A stretch of 64,000 nucleotides of DNA. Origin: Chloroflexota bacterium (lineage in GTDB: Bacteria; Chloroflexota; Anaerolineae; Anaerolineales; Anaerolineaceae). How positions within the stretch are numbered: the stretch's first letter is position 1; the number at the start of each line of letters is the position of its first letter. Positions 54,087 through 61,597 of the stretch are shown here, one piece after another. The notes beneath the pieces were generated by a model. The model saw only the letters and a program-made list of their open reading frames with translations. It was not told where the DNA came from and did not search any database. The DNA lies in the NCBI GenBank assembly GCA_029548365.1, contig JAKPNN010000021.1, positions 1 through 64,000 of the forward strand. Reading direction: 5' to 3'. The translations under genes were made by a program, and so were the position numbers.

Positions 54087-56393
54087 TCACCGGTTGATAA
54101 TCGACCGCAATTCCACCTGGCGGAAGTATCTCCGATAAGCTCGGCTCTCTTCTAGTAATTCTTTCAACACGGTTTCCAATAACGCACTTGCTCCAAAATC
54201 GGCTTCAGGTCTGTCAGCACGAATGTGAGCCTCTTCTCCCTTAAAATTCACAGACAGCATCCCCCTGGCTTCCCACAACAGCAACCCGGCGCGCACCGCG
54301 CTTTCATTAGCAGCGCAGATGGCTCCCAACCTCTCGATACGGACTCTCCCACCCAAATTGTTGAACGCGTATTTCGCCGCGCTGCCCAAACGGGACATAA
54401 AAGCATGTAGTTCACCGATGCCAGGTTCCACAGCAAAAACGGTCACCTGTTTCGGCTGCACAAGCTCCAGCACATGCTGTAAAACAGTTTGTGAAGGCGG
54501 CGTCGTCCAGATCACCAGGTGCGGAATTTTTTCAAGCTCGTGCCTGCCCTTGAAGGGCATCGCGTTGGGCAAATCACCTTCTCCCCAAATTAAAGCCCGC
54601 GGGGATTCGAGCACAAGTTGGGCTAATTGAGCCTGTGGGTGAGGGCTTGCTCGATAATCGATAAGCTCCACCTGGCGAGCGGCAATTTCTACCTTTCCTG
54701 CTTCAGAAAGCTGGAAATCAATCCATTCTGCGCTGAGTTGGGGTGTACCCTTGTAATCACTCTCTGTTAATCGGCACACAAGGTCAAATTGCGCCTCGGG
54801 CAGCCGCTCATCAGCGCCATTCCACCAGATCAGGCGCAGTTCGTTGCTCTCTTTGTCGGCGACCGTCACCTGGCGGTGTTCGCGTTCAATCCCCACAGTG
54901 GATTCTGCTACCACTCGCAGGTCGTTCACCCGGAAGTTCAAAGCCGGGTTTCCCTGGCCAAAGGGACCCAGGCGCGAGATTTCTCGCACCAGCGCCAGGT
55001 CCAACTCGTCAAGGCGGAGGGATCCGGCGATTTCAATCGACTCACCAACCGCACCGGAGGGCAATTGGGCTTCAACCGTTGCTAAAAACCGCCGTTTAAA
55101 AGCAGGATAATGCACAGCAGGCAGGGACAGCCCGGCAGCCATCGGGTGCCCGCCAAAGTTATTCAGCAGATCAGCCTGGGCGCCAATCGCCTCTGTGATG
55201 TGTAATCCGGGCACTGAGCGGGCTGAACCGGAAATCGGATCCTCGCCGGTCAACAGGATCACCGGCTTGTGGTAACGTTCCACCAGGCGACTGGCCACAA
55301 TCCCGACCACCCCTCCGGGCCAGCCAGGGTGATGCAGCACAATCGCTGGCGCGTGCCGATCGTCGCTGGAGGCTTGGAGTTGCGCCTCGGCTCCCTGTTC
55401 GACCTGGCGCGTCTCTGAACGCCGTTTGATATTCATCCCCTCAATCAGGGTCGCCAGGCGTCGTGCCTCAGATTTGTCCTGAGTGGTTAAAAACTCCACC
55501 ATCGGGTTGGCATCTCCCAGGCGCCCAACGGCATTCAACCGCGGCGCAATCTGAAAGCCAATATGTCCCTCGTTAATCAACCCGGGGTTCAGTTCAGCGT
55601 TTTCATACAACCGGATCAACCCGACCCTGTTGGTCTTACGCAAGCTTTTCAATCCCCTCTGCAGCAGGTAGCGGGTATCACCCCGCTGCTCTGCCACATC
55701 AGAAACGATGCCCAGGGCAACCAGTTCCTGCAACCGACCGGAATCCAATTCCCGGTCCAGGGAGGTATACAGCCCTTCGATCAGTTGATAAGCGACACCC
55801 ACGCCCGGTAGTGTGCGCAGAGGATGGCCCTCCTCCAGCCGCTGGGGGTTGATCACTGCGTCGGCGGGCGGCATTCTCTCGGCCAACAGGTGATGATCGG
55901 TAACGATAATTGGGATATCCAGGTTACGCACCCATTGCAAGCTTTCGAATTCGGTAATCCCCGTGTCGCAGGTCAGCAGCAGGTCAAACCCCTGTACCAA
56001 CTGGGCTTTGAGAACCTCCTTTCGGATGCCGTGGGATTCTTTTGACCGCACTGGGATATGGTAGCGGACATTTGCCCCCAGGCCGCGCAACCCCTCCACC
56101 AGCAGCGTGGTCGCGGTCTGCCCATCGACGTCAAAATCGCCCCACACCAGGATGCACGCCTGCTCACGGATCGCCCTGGTCAGTAAATCGCAGGCCCGCT
56201 CCATGTCGGGCAAATCAAAAGCGCTGGATGGACGGTAAAGATCAGGGTCTAAAAACGCCAGGACTTCGTCGACTTTCCGGTAGCCCCGTTCATAAAGTGT
56301 ATGTGCCACCAGCGGATGACCGCCAATGGCTTTCTGAAATTCAATCGGCATGGGATGGGTTTCTGCGTGTACCCAGGGCTGTTTGGGCGACAT
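54087..56393 (-). CDS. recJ: single-stranded-DNA-specific exonuclease RecJ
   Basis: 5'-3' exonuclease for recombination and mismatch repair, 768 residues. The DHH phosphoesterase domain has the metal ligands in GDFDVDG (D86, D88, D90), D143 in TCDTGIT and the motif DHH at 166-168. DHHA1 features are HHPGWPGGVVGIVASRL and NNFGGHPMAAGLSLP. Compared with E. coli, DYDVDG is DFDVDG. A C-terminal part of about 200 residues is specific to this lineage. The ATG overlaps the stop of the Fe-S nuclease gene by one base. Confidence 0.93.
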   Translation of the reverse strand: MSPKQPWVHAETHPMPIEFQKAIGGHPLVAHTLYERGYRKVDEVLAFLDPDLYRPSSAFDLPDMERACDLLTRAIREQACILVWGDFDVDGQTATTLLVEGLRGLGANVRYHIPVRSKESHGIRKEVLKAQLVQGFDLLLTCDTGITEFESLQWVRNLDIPIIVTDHHLLAERMPPADAVINPQRLEEGHPLRTLPGVGVAYQLIEGLYTSLDRELDSGRLQELVALGIVSDVAEQRGDTRYLLQRGLKSLRKTNRVGLIRLYENAELNPGLINEGHIGFQIAPRLNAVGRLGDANPMVEFLTTQDKSEARRLATLIEGMNIKRRSETRQVEQGAEAQLQASSDDRHAPAIVLHHPGWPGGVVGIVASRLVERYHKPVILLTGEDPISGSARSVPGLHITEAIGAQADLLNNFGGHPMAAGLSLPAVHYPAFKRRFLATVEAQLPSGAVGESIEIAGSLRLDELDLALVREISRLGPFGQGNPALNFRVNDLRVVAESTVGIEREHRQVTVADKESNELRLIWWNGADERLPEAQFDLVCRLTESDYKGTPQLSAEWIDFQLSEAGKVEIAARQVELIDYRASPHPQAQLAQLVLESPRALIWGEGDLPNAMPFKGRHELEKIPHLVIWTTPPSQTVLQHVLELVQPKQVTVFAVEPGIGELHAFMSRLGSAAKYAFNNLGGRVRIERLGAICAANESAVRAGLLLWEARGMLSVNFKGEEAHIRADRPEADFGASALLETVLKELLEESRAYRRYFRQVELRSIINR

Positions 56394-57232
56394 CAGAATT
56401 CAATCTCGGGCAGGTCATCAAAGTCGATCAATTGATCAGGGTCATCCAGCTCCAGCTCCAACCGGTCAAATTCTTCCAGACTGCCCGCTTCAACGCCGCG
56501 CTCACAATGCGAGCGGTAAACACAAAACCGGCACCTGCCGAGGTCAGCGGTGCGCAAGAAATCCTCAACTTCAGCGTTTGTGACGGTCTCAACCAGATGC
56601 GCCAGGTATTCACGATCACGATCATAATCCACCTGGCTGTAAATCAGCGAAATTGGCGTTTGGGGATGCGTCGCATACCAATAATGCATGCTGATCTGCT
56701 CGGGCGCTGCCTGCTGGTGATTAAGCAGCATTGGGCTGGCTTGCAACAACACCAGGCGATAAAGCCGGGTTTGGATTCGTTCCAAAAGCCGCACTTTGCT
56801 CAGGGGCTTTTCAGATGTTTTCCAATCAAAAAGTGTCAGATTGCCCTGCTCATCCACAAGCAGCAGGTCGTACTTAGCCAGCAGGCGTTGGCCGGCAAGT
56901 GTAGCCGTCAGGGACATCTCTACCCAGCGTTGACCCACCAGCCAGGGCGGTACATGCGCCATAAAACCTGCCCACCATGTGCGCAGTTCTGGCCATGGGT
57001 CTTCCTCTGCCAGCGCTTCAATCCGCTCGGCTGGCACGCCCATTAAATACTGCTGCACCAGTCGGTGAAAGCGCCCCCCTGCCTGGCCGCGTTGCTCGAA
57101 GTCAAGCGCCTGGTCGACCACCAGCGCGGGCCACCTGGTCCGCAATACATAACGCAGGTAAAAACGGTAAGGACAATCCACATAGTTCTGGAGATTAGCC
57201 TGGGTGAAAACAAAATCATTGGGGAGGATCAT
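56393..57232 (-). CDS. Fe-S PD-(D/E)XK nuclease, AddB C-terminal-like
   Basis: A stand-alone nuclease of 279 residues. Its cysteines are C20 (NYVDCPYRF), C234, C237 and C243 (CRFCVYRSHC), matching the iron-sulphur pattern C...CxxCxxxxxC of the AddB nuclease domain. The catalytic core shows GRFHRLVQQYL, AKYDLLLVDE and LFDWKTSEKP. I start at ATG 57232, after GGAGG. It overlaps the helicase upstream by 17 bases and touches recJ. I infer that it is the nuclease subunit of the recombination complex encoded here. Confidence 0.88.
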   Translation of the reverse strand: MILPNDFVFTQANLQNYVDCPYRFYLRYVLRTRWPALVVDQALDFEQRGQAGGRFHRLVQQYLMGVPAERIEALAEEDPWPELRTWWAGFMAHVPPWLVGQRWVEMSLTATLAGQRLLAKYDLLLVDEQGNLTLFDWKTSEKPLSKVRLLERIQTRLYRLVLLQASPMLLNHQQAAPEQISMHYWYATHPQTPISLIYSQVDYDRDREYLAHLVETVTNAEVEDFLRTADLGRCRFCVYRSHCERGVEAGSLEEFDRLELELDDPDQLIDFDDLPEIEF

Positions 57233-59474
57233 TTCTGGCCTCCAGGTCATTTATTAATGCAATCAACGCCTCAGCTGGCACGTTTTTATTGGCAGGTCTG
57301 CCAAAATTCCAACTGACCAATAGAAAGCGACGCGCCCGTGTGATGCCAACGAACAACAGGCGCAGTCGTTCACGGATAAACTCCAGCCGGGAATCCAGCG
57401 ACGCCTGGCCCGGTCGATACCAATCATAGGTATGCCCGTCGATCAGCGCCCGTAATTGGGCAATTGCTTCTGCCTCCAGGTTATGCTTTCCTTTCACAAA
57501 CCACTTTTCAGGCAGGTACTGGTCGTAAGGAGCGCCGGAAGGGAAATTATAATTATTGACTGCGGTTAGGAACACACAATCCCACTCTAAACCCTTGGCT
57601 TTGTGCATGGTTGCCACTACAACCTGACCGGGATAGCGGTCCGGGTCAAAGGCATCATCGTCAGCAGAAAATCCCAGATATCGGCGTTCATTTTTTGTAA
57701 TTGTGGTTAATTCGTCGATAAATTGCGGCAGACGCCAATCCAGATGGTCGTCGCTCATCTGGCGCAAAAGCGTGGAAAGTTTATAGGCCAGAGCCAGTTC
57801 AACCGGATCCAGGAACAGGTCCTGGGCAAGCGTCAACAGGAGTTGATCGATCGGTAAAATCATCGCTGAGTGCCAGCGCCGGACAACGGACTGAAAGGTC
57901 CTCAGCTCATTCAGGGCATCAGGCTCGCCCTCATTTTCTGCGATATCAGCCAGCCAATCCCGGTCAGCAAAAGGCCACAGGTATTCTTCCAGGTTTTTAC
58001 ACCTTTCAATCTGTTTCGCGATCCCCAGGTGAAATTTCCAGGCATCGTCATCTTCTTGCGCTCTTCGCCGCCAAACCTTGTACGCTTCGGCTAATTTTCG
58101 GCTGGATGTTGGATCGGCCAGGCAGCGTAGAATTTTGACCATGGCATCGGTTGAGAGCCGGGTCGAGCTCGATGAATGCAGCAAACTATCCACACAGGGT
58201 ATCTTTAGTTGCTTGAGCAGTTCAACATATTTATAAGCCCGGTCATTACGCAGGCAGAGGATTGCCACCGTCTGATCGGGCTGCTTTTCAAGAAAAGACC
58301 GGGCGGTATTGACCACATGCCGCATTTCTTCATCGGAACTCATGCGTTTGGTGAGCAAGCGGATGCAGTGTGGGCAGGGTTCGGGGTTGGGCTGGGGGTC
58401 ATCGGCGGGCGTTGCCAGTATCAATGGCGGCGACAAAGCACTGCGAGCTGCCGGCAGAGGATGTTCCGTCTGCGTCCATGTGATCAGATGATTGGCAAGA
58501 TCGATGATATCCTGTGAAGACCGCCCGCTCTCCGGCAATGTCCGCTGTTCAACAGTGGGATGATTCAGGTAATCAAGCAAGAATTGAGGGCTGGCTGTTG
58601 TAAAACTCTCGTAAATTGCCTGGTTTGGATCGCCAACCCGCACCCAGTTGCCTCCCTCACCTGCCAACAGCGAAAGGATCTCCTGCTGCAGACGGCTTGA
58701 ATCCTGGGCTTCATCCTCAAGAATAAATGGCCAGCGTTGGCGCAGTTGCTTCACCAGGGATGGATCTGATTTCAGGCAACGTAACGCCAACCGGATCAGG
58801 TCGTCAAAGTCAACGCCTCCCCGGTAGATCAGGGCATTCTGGTACTCGGCATACATGTCCAGCCCCATCCTGACCAGGGGCAGGGGGATTTGCATCCGGG
58901 TCAGTTTAATCTCGATATCAGCAGGCAATAACTCCCGATCCTTTGCCAGGCGGATAAAGGCGTTGGCAATGTTTTCCATCATCCTGGGCAGGCTTTGCTG
59001 AATGGCATTTGCCTGGCTTTTATTATTTTGATCATATTCCAGGTAAGGGTCCAGGAAGTCAGGTTGAGATGCAATCCAATCTTTGGCGATTCTACTCTTG
59101 ATCCTCTCACACTCATAATCATCAATGATCTGAAAATTATTGCTCAATCCCGCCAGGTCTGGGCGTTCGCGGACGATGTCATTCGCCAGCCCGTGCAGCG
59201 TACGCACCCGATACCCATAGCCTGGCAGCAAACCCTCCACCTGGAGCTGCGCACTGATGCGCGACGAGAAGTTGTCCACAGCCGCATTCACCAGCGTCAC
59301 CACCAGAATTTCCTGATCAGTCTCAATCATGCCGCGTTTGATCAGGTTGGCAGCTAAATATGCCAGTGTCCATGTTTTTCCGCTGCCAGGCACAGCGCTG
59401 ATCCCCATGCGACCGCCCTGGTAACGCAAAACCGCTTCCTGTCCGAGTCGTAATCGGATAGCTGGCTCGTTCAT
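57216..59474 (-). CDS. UvrD/AddA-like superfamily 1 helicase
   Basis: A 752-residue ATP-dependent helicase. Motif I is AVPGSGKT (27-34), motif II is ILEDEAQDSS, motif III follows in WVRVGDPNQAIYES, and later motifs are VVATMHKAKGLEWDCVFL and LRLLFVGITRARRFLLVSWN. The ATG at 59474 follows GGAGGG. Unlike AddA (about 1,200 residues), it has no C-terminal nuclease domain. It overlaps the AddB-like gene by 4 bases and the nuclease gene by 17. Confidence 0.9.
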   Translation of the reverse strand: MNEPAIRLRLGQEAVLRYQGGRMGISAVPGSGKTWTLAYLAANLIKRGMIETDQEILVVTLVNAAVDNFSSRISAQLQVEGLLPGYGYRVRTLHGLANDIVRERPDLAGLSNNFQIIDDYECERIKSRIAKDWIASQPDFLDPYLEYDQNNKSQANAIQQSLPRMMENIANAFIRLAKDRELLPADIEIKLTRMQIPLPLVRMGLDMYAEYQNALIYRGGVDFDDLIRLALRCLKSDPSLVKQLRQRWPFILEDEAQDSSRLQQEILSLLAGEGGNWVRVGDPNQAIYESFTTASPQFLLDYLNHPTVEQRTLPESGRSSQDIIDLANHLITWTQTEHPLPAARSALSPPLILATPADDPQPNPEPCPHCIRLLTKRMSSDEEMRHVVNTARSFLEKQPDQTVAILCLRNDRAYKYVELLKQLKIPCVDSLLHSSSSTRLSTDAMVKILRCLADPTSSRKLAEAYKVWRRRAQEDDDAWKFHLGIAKQIERCKNLEEYLWPFADRDWLADIAENEGEPDALNELRTFQSVVRRWHSAMILPIDQLLLTLAQDLFLDPVELALAYKLSTLLRQMSDDHLDWRLPQFIDELTTITKNERRYLGFSADDDAFDPDRYPGQVVVATMHKAKGLEWDCVFLTAVNNYNFPSGAPYDQYLPEKWFVKGKHNLEAEAIAQLRALIDGHTYDWYRPGQASLDSRLEFIRERLRLLFVGITRARRFLLVSWNFGRPANKNVPAEALIALINDLEARNDPPQ

Positions 59475-61597
59475 GCACCCTCCTTCAGTGAACGCCGCCA
59501 CGCCTCATTGATAATTCGGATCAACAAACCCCGATTCTCATAGCCGCGTACATCCAGGGCGCTCATCCCGATATACACCTTCTTTCGACACCGGTTGAGC
59601 AATCCAATGCTGAGCCTTCGCAGGGTTTCGTGGGCAGCAGCCAGCTCATTATCAGCATCCCAAACGTCACCGGTTGTCCAGTGCCGACTGAGCACATAGG
59701 GATGGGTCAGGGGTTGATCCAGACGCTGATACCAGCTTGGGCTGCCAATATCCAACCAGAATTGAACGTCTACCGGCTGGTTGCTGATCAGGAAGGTGTA
59801 GGCTGGCGCCATAAACACGGCATCCGGCGAACGCTCCTCCCAGGTTCTCAGGTATTGGGCAGCTATCACACCATCCTGCACCATTCGCAGGTATTCTTTG
59901 CCCAGGTTAAAATCCTCACCGGGTAACTGCTGTCCAACCGTCCATCGAAATTTTTGCACCGATTCGATCAGGGTTGAAACGGTATTGGCTCTTTCCAGAT
60001 CATCGTGAAACCCAAACCCGGGCTGGCTCAACACCTCACCGAACAGCCGGCTGAGGAAAAAATCAAGGTTCTGACTGCCCTCTGCCCCTGCAGCTTCCAA
60101 CAGCCATTGCCGAAGCCTGTCATAGCGTTCTCCCACCCGGTAAGTGATACGATCCTTAAACGCATTCGGGATTGCTTCAAATGGCTTAAGCAAGATTCCG
60201 TCATTGCCTGGTTCAAAGACCAGGTTGACCAATAATTGGGCTCTGACCAGGTCCAAACCTTCGATCGCCTGCATCAATGCCAATGCAAGGTTGACCGGTT
60301 GTGCTGGCATCGACCAGCCCGGGTAAGCAATCGATGCCAGGCTGAGTAAAGTCTGTGTGGCAGGTTCATCACGCAATGCCCGTGAAGGTCGATGGGATTG
60401 GTGTGGAATACCCAGCGCATCCAGACCATCGCCCAAGGCAAACCGCAGTACATCCGGCATATAAGGCGCCAAAAGGACGATCTCAGCGGGCGGAACCCCG
60501 CTTTCAATCAGCTCAGCCACGTTTTGCGTGACCCATTTGACCATTGATGGAAACAATTTAATATGCTCACCCGGCAAGCCCAGTGCCTCCCGCAAAGCTG
60601 GCGTGGGGCTTTCAATCTCCTCCTCGCTCCGGGATTGGAGCTGGCTGATCACCGATTGGATGCCTGTTTTCAACTGGGCGATAGCAGTCTCGTTAACCAA
60701 ATTCTGTTTAAACCACAAACGCGTCTCGCAGGCTGAGCCCAATGAAAATGCGCTGATCACATCCGCACCAAGGAAAGAACGAAAGCCCGCCTCCTCATCG
60801 GCAATTAACAGCGCCGATTCGAATTCAGACAGCCAATCCCTGAGCACGTCATGGGTTACAGGCGTATCTTCCTCGATATTGTCAGCAATCAGGTGGCGGT
60901 AAGATTGCACCAGGTGCTCACGACACAACCGAAGCGGCCACAGGCGCTGAAGAAATACCTCCACCTGCAATGAAAAATCCAGCAGGTTATGTGCCAGGCA
61001 AAATTGACGAAAATGGTCCGCACAGCGCTGTACATCATCGTAGATGTTGAACTGTTCAATTCCCCCAATCCAGGCGGATTTCAAACGGGGGCCGATCTCT
61101 TCGTAGGGGAAACCCACAATCGCCGCTTTATTCAAATTATCCAATATTTGGGCATAAATTCGGTTGCGGTGAATAGCCAGACTCTCAAAATATCCTTCGT
61201 TTTCGATCAGCGGCCTAACGACATGCGCCATATAATATTGGCCCGATTCGAGCGTCAGGAAATGCGGCGGCTGATTGGGGTGGGCAAAGCCAGCCTCCTC
61301 GCTAATTAGCGGCCAGAATAAGTCCACCATCCGCCTGGCTAAACCGCCCAGGGTCATCGTGGTGATCAAACTGTGGGCAAACGCCCCCTCATCGTGCATG
61401 CAATCCAGGTAGGGCTGTGCCAGGGTCCGTTGCGGGGTGAACACCAGGATTTGATGAGGAGGCACACCAGCCTTCAGCAGTTTTTGAAGCCAGTGCACCC
61501 CGGCAGTCGTTTTCCCTGAACCGGCTTTGCCCTGGACAAAAATTTTCGTATCGATCGGCTGGGTTAACAGCAAGCCTTGTTCGTCAGTAAGCAGCAT
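59471..61597 (-). CDS. AddB-like ATPase/helicase without nuclease domain
   Basis: A 708-residue protein that begins like AddB/RexB helicases: KIFVQGKAGSGKTTAGVHWL (Walker A 23-30) and the later YRHLIADNIEED as Walker B. The remaining helicase motifs are weak. AddB proteins normally extend to about 1,100 residues with a C-terminal nuclease; here that part is missing and is encoded separately at 56393-57232. It is the first gene of a four-gene operon. Its likely role is recognising DNA ends or Chi with the adjacent helicase, by analogy. Confidence 0.8.
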   Translation of the reverse strand: MLLTDEQGLLLTQPIDTKIFVQGKAGSGKTTAGVHWLQKLLKAGVPPHQILVFTPQRTLAQPYLDCMHDEGAFAHSLITTMTLGGLARRMVDLFWPLISEEAGFAHPNQPPHFLTLESGQYYMAHVVRPLIENEGYFESLAIHRNRIYAQILDNLNKAAIVGFPYEEIGPRLKSAWIGGIEQFNIYDDVQRCADHFRQFCLAHNLLDFSLQVEVFLQRLWPLRLCREHLVQSYRHLIADNIEEDTPVTHDVLRDWLSEFESALLIADEEAGFRSFLGADVISAFSLGSACETRLWFKQNLVNETAIAQLKTGIQSVISQLQSRSEEEIESPTPALREALGLPGEHIKLFPSMVKWVTQNVAELIESGVPPAEIVLLAPYMPDVLRFALGDGLDALGIPHQSHRPSRALRDEPATQTLLSLASIAYPGWSMPAQPVNLALALMQAIEGLDLVRAQLLVNLVFEPGNDGILLKPFEAIPNAFKDRITYRVGERYDRLRQWLLEAAGAEGSQNLDFFLSRLFGEVLSQPGFGFHDDLERANTVSTLIESVQKFRWTVGQQLPGEDFNLGKEYLRMVQDGVIAAQYLRTWEERSPDAVFMAPAYTFLISNQPVDVQFWLDIGSPSWYQRLDQPLTHPYVLSRHWTTGDVWDADNELAAAHETLRRLSIGLLNRCRKKVYIGMSALDVRGYENRGLLIRIINEAWRRSLKEGA

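Follow-up and report, generated by a model that had tools for sequence, protein, structure and literature searches.

The window, a stretch of 64,000 nucleotides from a Chloroflexota bacterium, carries a cassette of four genes on its minus strand (Table 1). According to the ORFs and the DNA read at the joints, the order at 54087-61597 is ADDBN, HEL, NUC and RecJ2. The stop codon of ADDBN and the ATG of HEL have four bases in common (59471-59474), those of HEL and NUC 17 bases (57216-57232), and those of NUC and RecJ2 one base (56393). The four overlapping genes of the initial annotation are therefore visible in the DNA itself, with overlaps of exactly the lengths given there. A GGAGG sequence resembling a ribosome-binding site precedes the start codons of HEL and NUC. 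The ORF listing contains longer in-frame starts for both, GTG 59501 for HEL and ATG 57250 for NUC. The later ATGs were taken as starts, because they match the starts of aligned relatives better. Upstream of the cassette lies a divergent gene which we take to encode an acyl-CoA synthetase, and downstream a convergent gene for a presumably DegV-like protein. The divergent neighbour is of the same kind in all 14 congener loci read.

Table 1. Genes of the cassette, listed in the order of transcription.
Gene	Length	Position	Strand	Description
ADDBN (large subunit)	708 aa	59471..61597	-	SF1A helicase fold without nuclease
HEL	752 aa (from ATG 59474)	57216..59474	-	UvrD/PcrA-type helicase, motifs intact, without nuclease domain
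NUC	279 aa (from ATG 57232)	56393..57232	-	Free-standing Fe-S PD-(D/E)XK nuclease
RecJ2	768 aa	54087..56393	-	One of the two RecJ proteins of the genome, catalytic motifs intact

Domains and motifs of the four proteins

In Pfam, ADDBN has weak helicase matches, all below the cut-off, and no match to the PF12705 nuclease; in accordance with the model, the chain ends with the helicase fold. Its structure was predicted, like that of NUC, as a single chain (mean pLDDT 87.9, pTM 0.85). In whole-length alignments, the model resembles UvrD (4c30_I, Z 28.6, 9.4 Å, 573 aligned residues; 4c2t_D, Z 27.6, 4.8 Å, 499 residues), AdnB (9np6_B, Z 24.4, 4.2 Å, 621 residues) and, with residues 17-704, the helicase half of AddB (4cei_B 2-696, Z 20.8, 5.8 Å, 609 residues). 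Foldseek lists UvrD first and AddB 21st. ADDBN thus has the inactivated SF1A half with UvrD topology that is typical of AddB, a likeness that is not specific since UvrD yields higher Z values. This fold together with the absence of PF12705 bears out the AddB-type protein without nuclease that had been proposed. In motif II, the DEFQD of PcrA is aligned to DNIEED of ADDBN, and VDEFQD of the PcrA-like protein from the same genome corresponds to ADNIEED. The catalytic Glu of motif II is replaced by Asn (Asn240) and the Gln of motif III by Ala or Gly in 56/56 aligned ADDBN sequences; the Walker A Lys is present in 55 of them. Because Walker A is kept and the motif II and III residues are replaced, ADDBN is predicted to bind ATP without hydrolysing it, as a pseudo-helicase or DNA scanner like the Chi-scanning half of AddB.

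The affinities of ADDBN were compared profile against profile with hhalign, using alignments of 56 and of 16 sequences (the smaller one, A1). The 56-sequence profile matches the AddB motor with 8.8e-10, PcrA with 9.1e-10, the AddA motor with 4.2e-7 over 58 columns and HEL with 6.5e-5; the 16-sequence profile is nearer to PcrA (2.2e-10) than to AddB (3.8e-9). Judged by these profiles, ADDBN appears as much PcrA-like as AddB-like. Among the PDB sequences matched by the ADDBN profiles are PcrA, HelD and further helicases; AddB is not listed, a missing match that is no evidence against the fold. The Pfam family ADDB_N (PF21445) matches 5/56 ADDBN members at E ≤1e-2 (best 1.2e-4), and the protein of the window is not among the listed matches. 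Near the C-terminal end of ADDBN, residues 612-640 are densely invariant (Q612-W614, W622, R625, Q628, P629, T631, P633, W640) and might be a counterpart of the ionic latch described for AddB (PMC4824097).

HEL contains the N- and C-terminal UvrD domains PF00580 and PF13361, both above the cut-off, and no Pfam match to PF12705. Its motifs are intact in 13/13 aligned sequences, apart from conservative exchanges, which points to an active SF1A motor. With the NCBIfam model of AddA it scores 77 bits, the cut-off being 708. The HEL profile matches PcrA (5.4e-44) better than the AddA motor (2.9e-36) and the AddB motor (7.5e-14), and among PDB sequences PcrA is best (1.7e-36), with AddA at 1.1e-20. 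HEL is therefore probably rather PcrA-like. This means that a UvrD-type helicase without nuclease was correctly recognized at the outset, whereas its derivation from AddA was not supported. The best PHROGs match of HEL is the phage DNA helicase family phrog_1967, whose 190 bits exceed the best Pfam and NCBIfam bit scores of the protein.

NUC matches PDDEXK_1 (PF12705) with 91 bits at a cut-off of 22. Its key residues are C20, H56, E105, D122, D136-W137-K138, Q154xxxY158 and C234xxC237xxxxxC243. D136 is D in 40 and E in one of the 41 aligned sequences, the one from the window included; C20, H56, E105, D122, W137, K138, Q154, Y158, C234, C237 and C243 are invariant in all 41. NUC thus combines the PD-(D/E)XK and QxxxY motifs with four cysteines (C...CxxCx5C), the features of Fe-S nucleases of the RecB/AddB type. 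The nearest structure to its model (pLDDT 87.7) is the AdnA nuclease (9np6_A, Z 18.3, 2.9 Å, 224 aligned residues), followed by the AddB nuclease (4cej_B, Z 15.4, 3.7 Å, 237 residues) and ACE1 (9iac_B, Z 15.4, 3.3 Å, 222 residues). At the profile level, the AddB nuclease (2e-8 over 224 columns) is matched better than the AddA nuclease (1.2e-4 over 40 columns); against PDB sequences, the NUC profiles give weak matches alone, among them ACE1, Cas4, MGME1 and AdnB. NUC is therefore predicted to be AddB-like. The claim of a free Fe-S nuclease with the CxxCxxxxxC pattern of AddB stands, given the PF12705 match, the cysteines conserved throughout and the nearness to AddB.

RecJ2 reaches 459 bits with NCBIfam TIGR00644 (cut-off 396.9), and the aspartates and histidines of its DHH/DHHA1 motifs are kept in 29/29 sequences. 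The other RecJ of the genome has 600 aa and is 34% identical to RecJ2 over 547 columns. Past the OB domain, RecJ2 carries about 200 C-terminal residues that are absent from the other RecJ, which covers 20 positions of the region 560-768. Conservation is lower in this region than in the core, with mean majority fractions of 0.48 and 0.65, respectively.

Gene order and distribution in Anaerolineae

The gene order of the cassette is found again even where the ADDBN of a relative is only about 39% identical, and the arrangement is therefore not due to chance. Gene order was surveyed at 80 named loci, 52 of which have at least 8 kb of sequence downstream of ADDBN. HEL is the next gene on the same strand at 45 of these 52 loci, ADDBN, HEL and NUC follow each other at 35, and all four genes are in order at 26, in 14 cases with gaps of at most 150 bases. 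The survey of related genomes that had been recommended thus confirms a recurrent order. Outside the genus, neighbouring genes may overlap or lie kilobases apart, and dispersal is frequent. Because of this variation, the overlaps alone provide no argument for the stoichiometric co-production deduced from them in the initial annotation. A natural fusion between cassette parts was not found among the compared ORFs of L001-L121. HEL is divided into two ORFs at L042 (652 + 89 aa; L042 and L038 represent the contig of the congener G014) and at L107 (372 + 421 aa), where RecJ is likewise split, by assembly error or a real frameshift.

A search for a further partner yielded nine ORF clusters outside the four genes that recur at eight or more of these loci. 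The two largest, with 47 and 28 loci, run in the direction opposite to that of the cassette and coincide at least in part with ADDBN and HEL, and were for this reason regarded as antisense ORFs. The other seven comprise 8 to 10 loci each. They include what we take to be further antisense ORFs and common neighbouring genes, the latter for a hydrolase, ribosomal proteins, thymidine kinase and a phosphoribosyltransferase.

Among 41 genomes, the relatives and the source genome itself, 29 contain ADDBN at E ≤1e-60, one match at 7.9e-4 not being counted; AddB is present in 10 of the same 41. A sample of 400 genomes from the phylum contains 45 with an ADDBN match below 1e-100, all of them the source genome or members of its genus, family, order or class. 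The 92 weaker matches in this sample were dropped; the best of them, which is also the best from a genome sharing the phylum only, has 3.8e-9. In a scan of contigs, the best 80 of at least 465 ADDBN loci are all Chloroflexota by title and mostly Anaerolineae (e.g. L068, Anaerolinea thermolimosa). These 80 include L073 and L112, titled Candidatus Aquidulcis and Herpetosiphon, names that presumably belong to other classes. In the genomes sampled, the cassette is found almost only in one class, identified as Anaerolineae by these titles.

Within this class, 120 genomes were compared for which 95% completeness was asked; the source genome (G000), 70.7% complete, was included nonetheless. AddB was counted as present at E ≤1e-30, and weaker matches in 23 of the 120 genomes were dropped. 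For RecJ the matches per genome were counted, regardless of whether the second is the long form. ADDBN is found in 81 genomes, HEL in 80, NUC in 73, two RecJ matches in 57 and AddB in 46. ADDBN and HEL are together in 79 genomes (ADDBN alone in 2, HEL alone in 1, neither in 38), ADDBN and NUC in 71 (alone in 10 and 2, neither in 37), and ADDBN and two RecJ matches in 56 (alone in 25 and 1, neither in 38). All three core genes, ADDBN, HEL and NUC, are present in 70 of the 120 genomes. A NUC match is missing in 9/79 genomes with ADDBN and HEL, and a single RecJ match is found in 17/70 genomes with all three core genes. Two RecJ matches occur in 56/81 genomes with ADDBN vs 1/39 without it. Hence, RecJ2 is a second RecJ and the least constant part of the cassette; of the coupling to RecJ initially proposed, the identity of the protein holds, and the link is variable. 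One weak RecJ match each was found in G447, G460 and G490 (family f116) and in G190 (f16), with E about 1e-83 and 1e-52; these genomes may be without an ordinary RecJ.

The three core genes tend to co-occur independently of AddB. ADDBN and AddB are both present in 33 of the 120 genomes, ADDBN only in 48, AddB only in 13 and neither in 26 (Fisher p 0.55, shared ancestry ignored). Owing to this independence, neither replacement nor obligate cooperation fits, and the candidate explanation that the cassette replaces AddAB was abandoned as unsupported. In the search with the AddB profile, some genomes that have no better match contain proteins of 700-800 aa (e.g. G449:C79, G450:C22) which match the first third of the profile, with E values of 1e-18 to 1e-21.

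Measured between match starts, and with G522 (NUC only) left out, the core genes lie within 10 kb in 32/70 genomes and not all within 10 kb in 38/70. In G405, all three are on the same contig, with starts at 2.22 Mb (ADDBN), 0.20 Mb (HEL) and 1.03 Mb (NUC). ADDBN and NUC are on separate contigs in 33/71 genomes, and part of the dispersal may be due to broken assemblies. In several families, every sampled genome has ADDBN and HEL (9/9, 10/10, 10/10). In family f19, all three core genes are present in 6/9 genomes and none of them in the remaining 3/9, a hint that they were lost as a unit; one of the latter, G518, still has two RecJ matches.

A complete AddAB beside the cassette

Contig 48 of the source genome (L004 6850-15350) encodes a full-length AddB of 1016 aa and, behind it, an AddA of 1104 aa from the likely start or 1156 aa as the longest ORF. 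The addB gene is immediately preceded, in the same orientation, by a gene for a 695 aa ATPase, presumably of the RecF/SMC type. In the congener G014, an AddB with 88% identity is adjacent to an AddA with 92% identity. That contig 48 belongs to the source genome is supported only indirectly, by the 88% identity of the G014 AddB and a contamination estimate of 1.37%. The genome also contains a PcrA-like helicase, which scores 759 bits and stays under the family cut-off of 911. Since complete AddB and AddA are encoded in the same genome, the cassette is an additional system and not the AddAB of the cell in pieces. The initial annotation had described an AddAB divided into three polypeptides and had itself named separate full-length AddA and AddB as a refutation; contig 48 carries just these genes, and the description in this form was given up.

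That the AddAB of the lineage was taken apart, with AddB and AddA both deprived of their nuclease and one nuclease released as its own gene, would agree with the profile matches that link ADDBN with the AddB motor and NUC with the AddB nuclease. It would also agree with the position of the large subunit before the motor, as in addB-addA of this genome. Yet AddB and AddA are complete both here and in G014. In addition, HEL matches PcrA better than AddA (5.4e-44 vs 2.9e-36; PDB 1.7e-36 vs 1.1e-20) and ADDBN matches AddB and PcrA about equally well, so that descent by splitting is not demonstrated. Literal splitting is ruled out as the main reading by the full-length AddAB, and we regard it as quite improbable. 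A set for gaps and replication forks would be somewhat easier to accept, although still unlikely: HEL and RecJ2 would resect gaps and stalled forks, NUC would remove flaps and ADDBN would regulate, without any AddAB-like complex. It is generally known that RecJ works together with such helicases, and the coexistence with AddB in 33/120 genomes without exclusion would suit this role. However, RecJ2 is the least constant part, and the most constant pair is ADDBN and HEL (79 together). Moreover, the loss of the catalytic motif residues in ADDBN has its parallel in the AddB and RecC scanners as they have been described (PMC4824097).

A module for defence against phages, similar to Gabija or to the UvrD-Cas4-like modules, is the least probable of these alternatives and appears very unlikely. 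The best PADLOC model for HEL is GajB (154 bits), NUC weakly matches Cas4 and Argonaute-associated Cas4-like models and resembles ACE1 in its fold, and UvrD-Cas4 fusions have been proposed as parts of defence systems (PMC5704561). HEL, however, matches many GajB and UvrD models alike, and no GajA model figures among those matched by any of the four cassette proteins. Furthermore, a defence module hardly agrees with the presence of ADDBN and HEL throughout the sampled genomes of several families or with the same divergent neighbour at 14 congener loci. With no specific match among the defence models, this candidate was rejected.

A candidate machine for DNA end processing

The reading that we favour, with a probability of roughly 0.55, is that the cassette encodes a machine for double-strand ends that works like AddAB/AdnAB and is built of separate chains. 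A divided machine of this type is the most economical account of the predicted folds, motif states, co-occurrence, near class restriction and coexistence with AddAB; its assembly is inferred. HEL would be a 3'-5' motor unwinding the DNA end, its polarity being deduced. ADDBN would bind ATP without hydrolysing it and act as a static partner guiding one strand, as the inactive folds of AddB and RecC do when scanning for Chi. NUC would dock on the ADDBN/HEL pair and cut the strand fed to it, and RecJ2, where present, would trim the 5' strand to leave a 3' tail for RecA. Complex formation, the substrate, any Chi-like signal, the division of labour and the handover to RecJ2 are elements that we infer. 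The genome has AddAB as well as a PcrA-like helicase and a further RecJ, and the cassette may therefore serve something else. Against such a machine also speak the genomes lacking NUC (9/79) or a second RecJ (17/70) and the lack of natural fusions at the loci examined, as do the independence of ADDBN from AddB, its profile matches to PcrA, which equal or surpass those to AddB, and its PDB matches, in which AddB is not listed.

In bacteria, the processing of double-strand ends is commonly ascribed to RecBCD, AddAB or AdnAB, in which the nuclease is fused to the helicase. Like AddAB, the cassette combines an SF1A fold that is inactive but retains Walker A, an active motor of the same SF1A type and an Fe-S nuclease of the RecB family. 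It differs in that neither helicase fold carries a nuclease and only one nuclease is present, that the motor is nearer to PcrA, and that true AddAB exists alongside it. AdnA and AdnB each contain motor and nuclease in one chain, whereas PF12705 is confined to the separate NUC gene here. The likeness to AdnAB lies in NUC, for whose model the AdnA nuclease is the closest structure, and in ADDBN, which aligns with AdnB at 4.2 Å over 621 residues. RecJ2 resembles RecJ (TIGR00644) in its DHH/DHHA1 motifs and its score above the cut-off and differs from it as a second copy with a C-terminal extension.

The inactivated helicase domains of AddB and RecC are reported to recognise Chi (PMC4824097). Predicted operons of unfused UvrD and Cas4-like genes, mostly from Clostridiales, have been suggested to act in processes such as DNA repair (PMC5704561). 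In both cases, UvrD and a PF12705 Cas4-like protein are encoded by separate adjoining genes, so that the pairing of UvrD with an unfused PF12705 nuclease is in itself nothing new. The accessible part of that source names Clostridiales and mentions neither an inactive helicase partner nor a RecJ. A literature search over titles and abstract beginnings, with most subscription papers outside it, yielded nothing on this cassette.

More tentatively, and with less confidence than in the machine as such, the cassette might represent a RecBCD/AddAB-class enzyme of the Anaerolineae composed of a separate, possibly exchangeable nuclease, a non-hydrolysing scanner, a PcrA-like motor and an own RecJ for the 5' strand. 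This would be a further architecture beside AddAB and AdnAB, derived at least in part independently from UvrD-type helicases, and the main machine of this kind where AddAB is absent. If a divided end-processing machine is correct, parts such as a free nuclease and a pseudo-helicase can be separate chains across a whole class, which would offer a natural way to study the control of the nuclease subunit by subunit. The cassette could fill a gap in those class members in which AddB was not detected; among the 70 genomes that possess ADDBN, HEL and NUC, these number 39.
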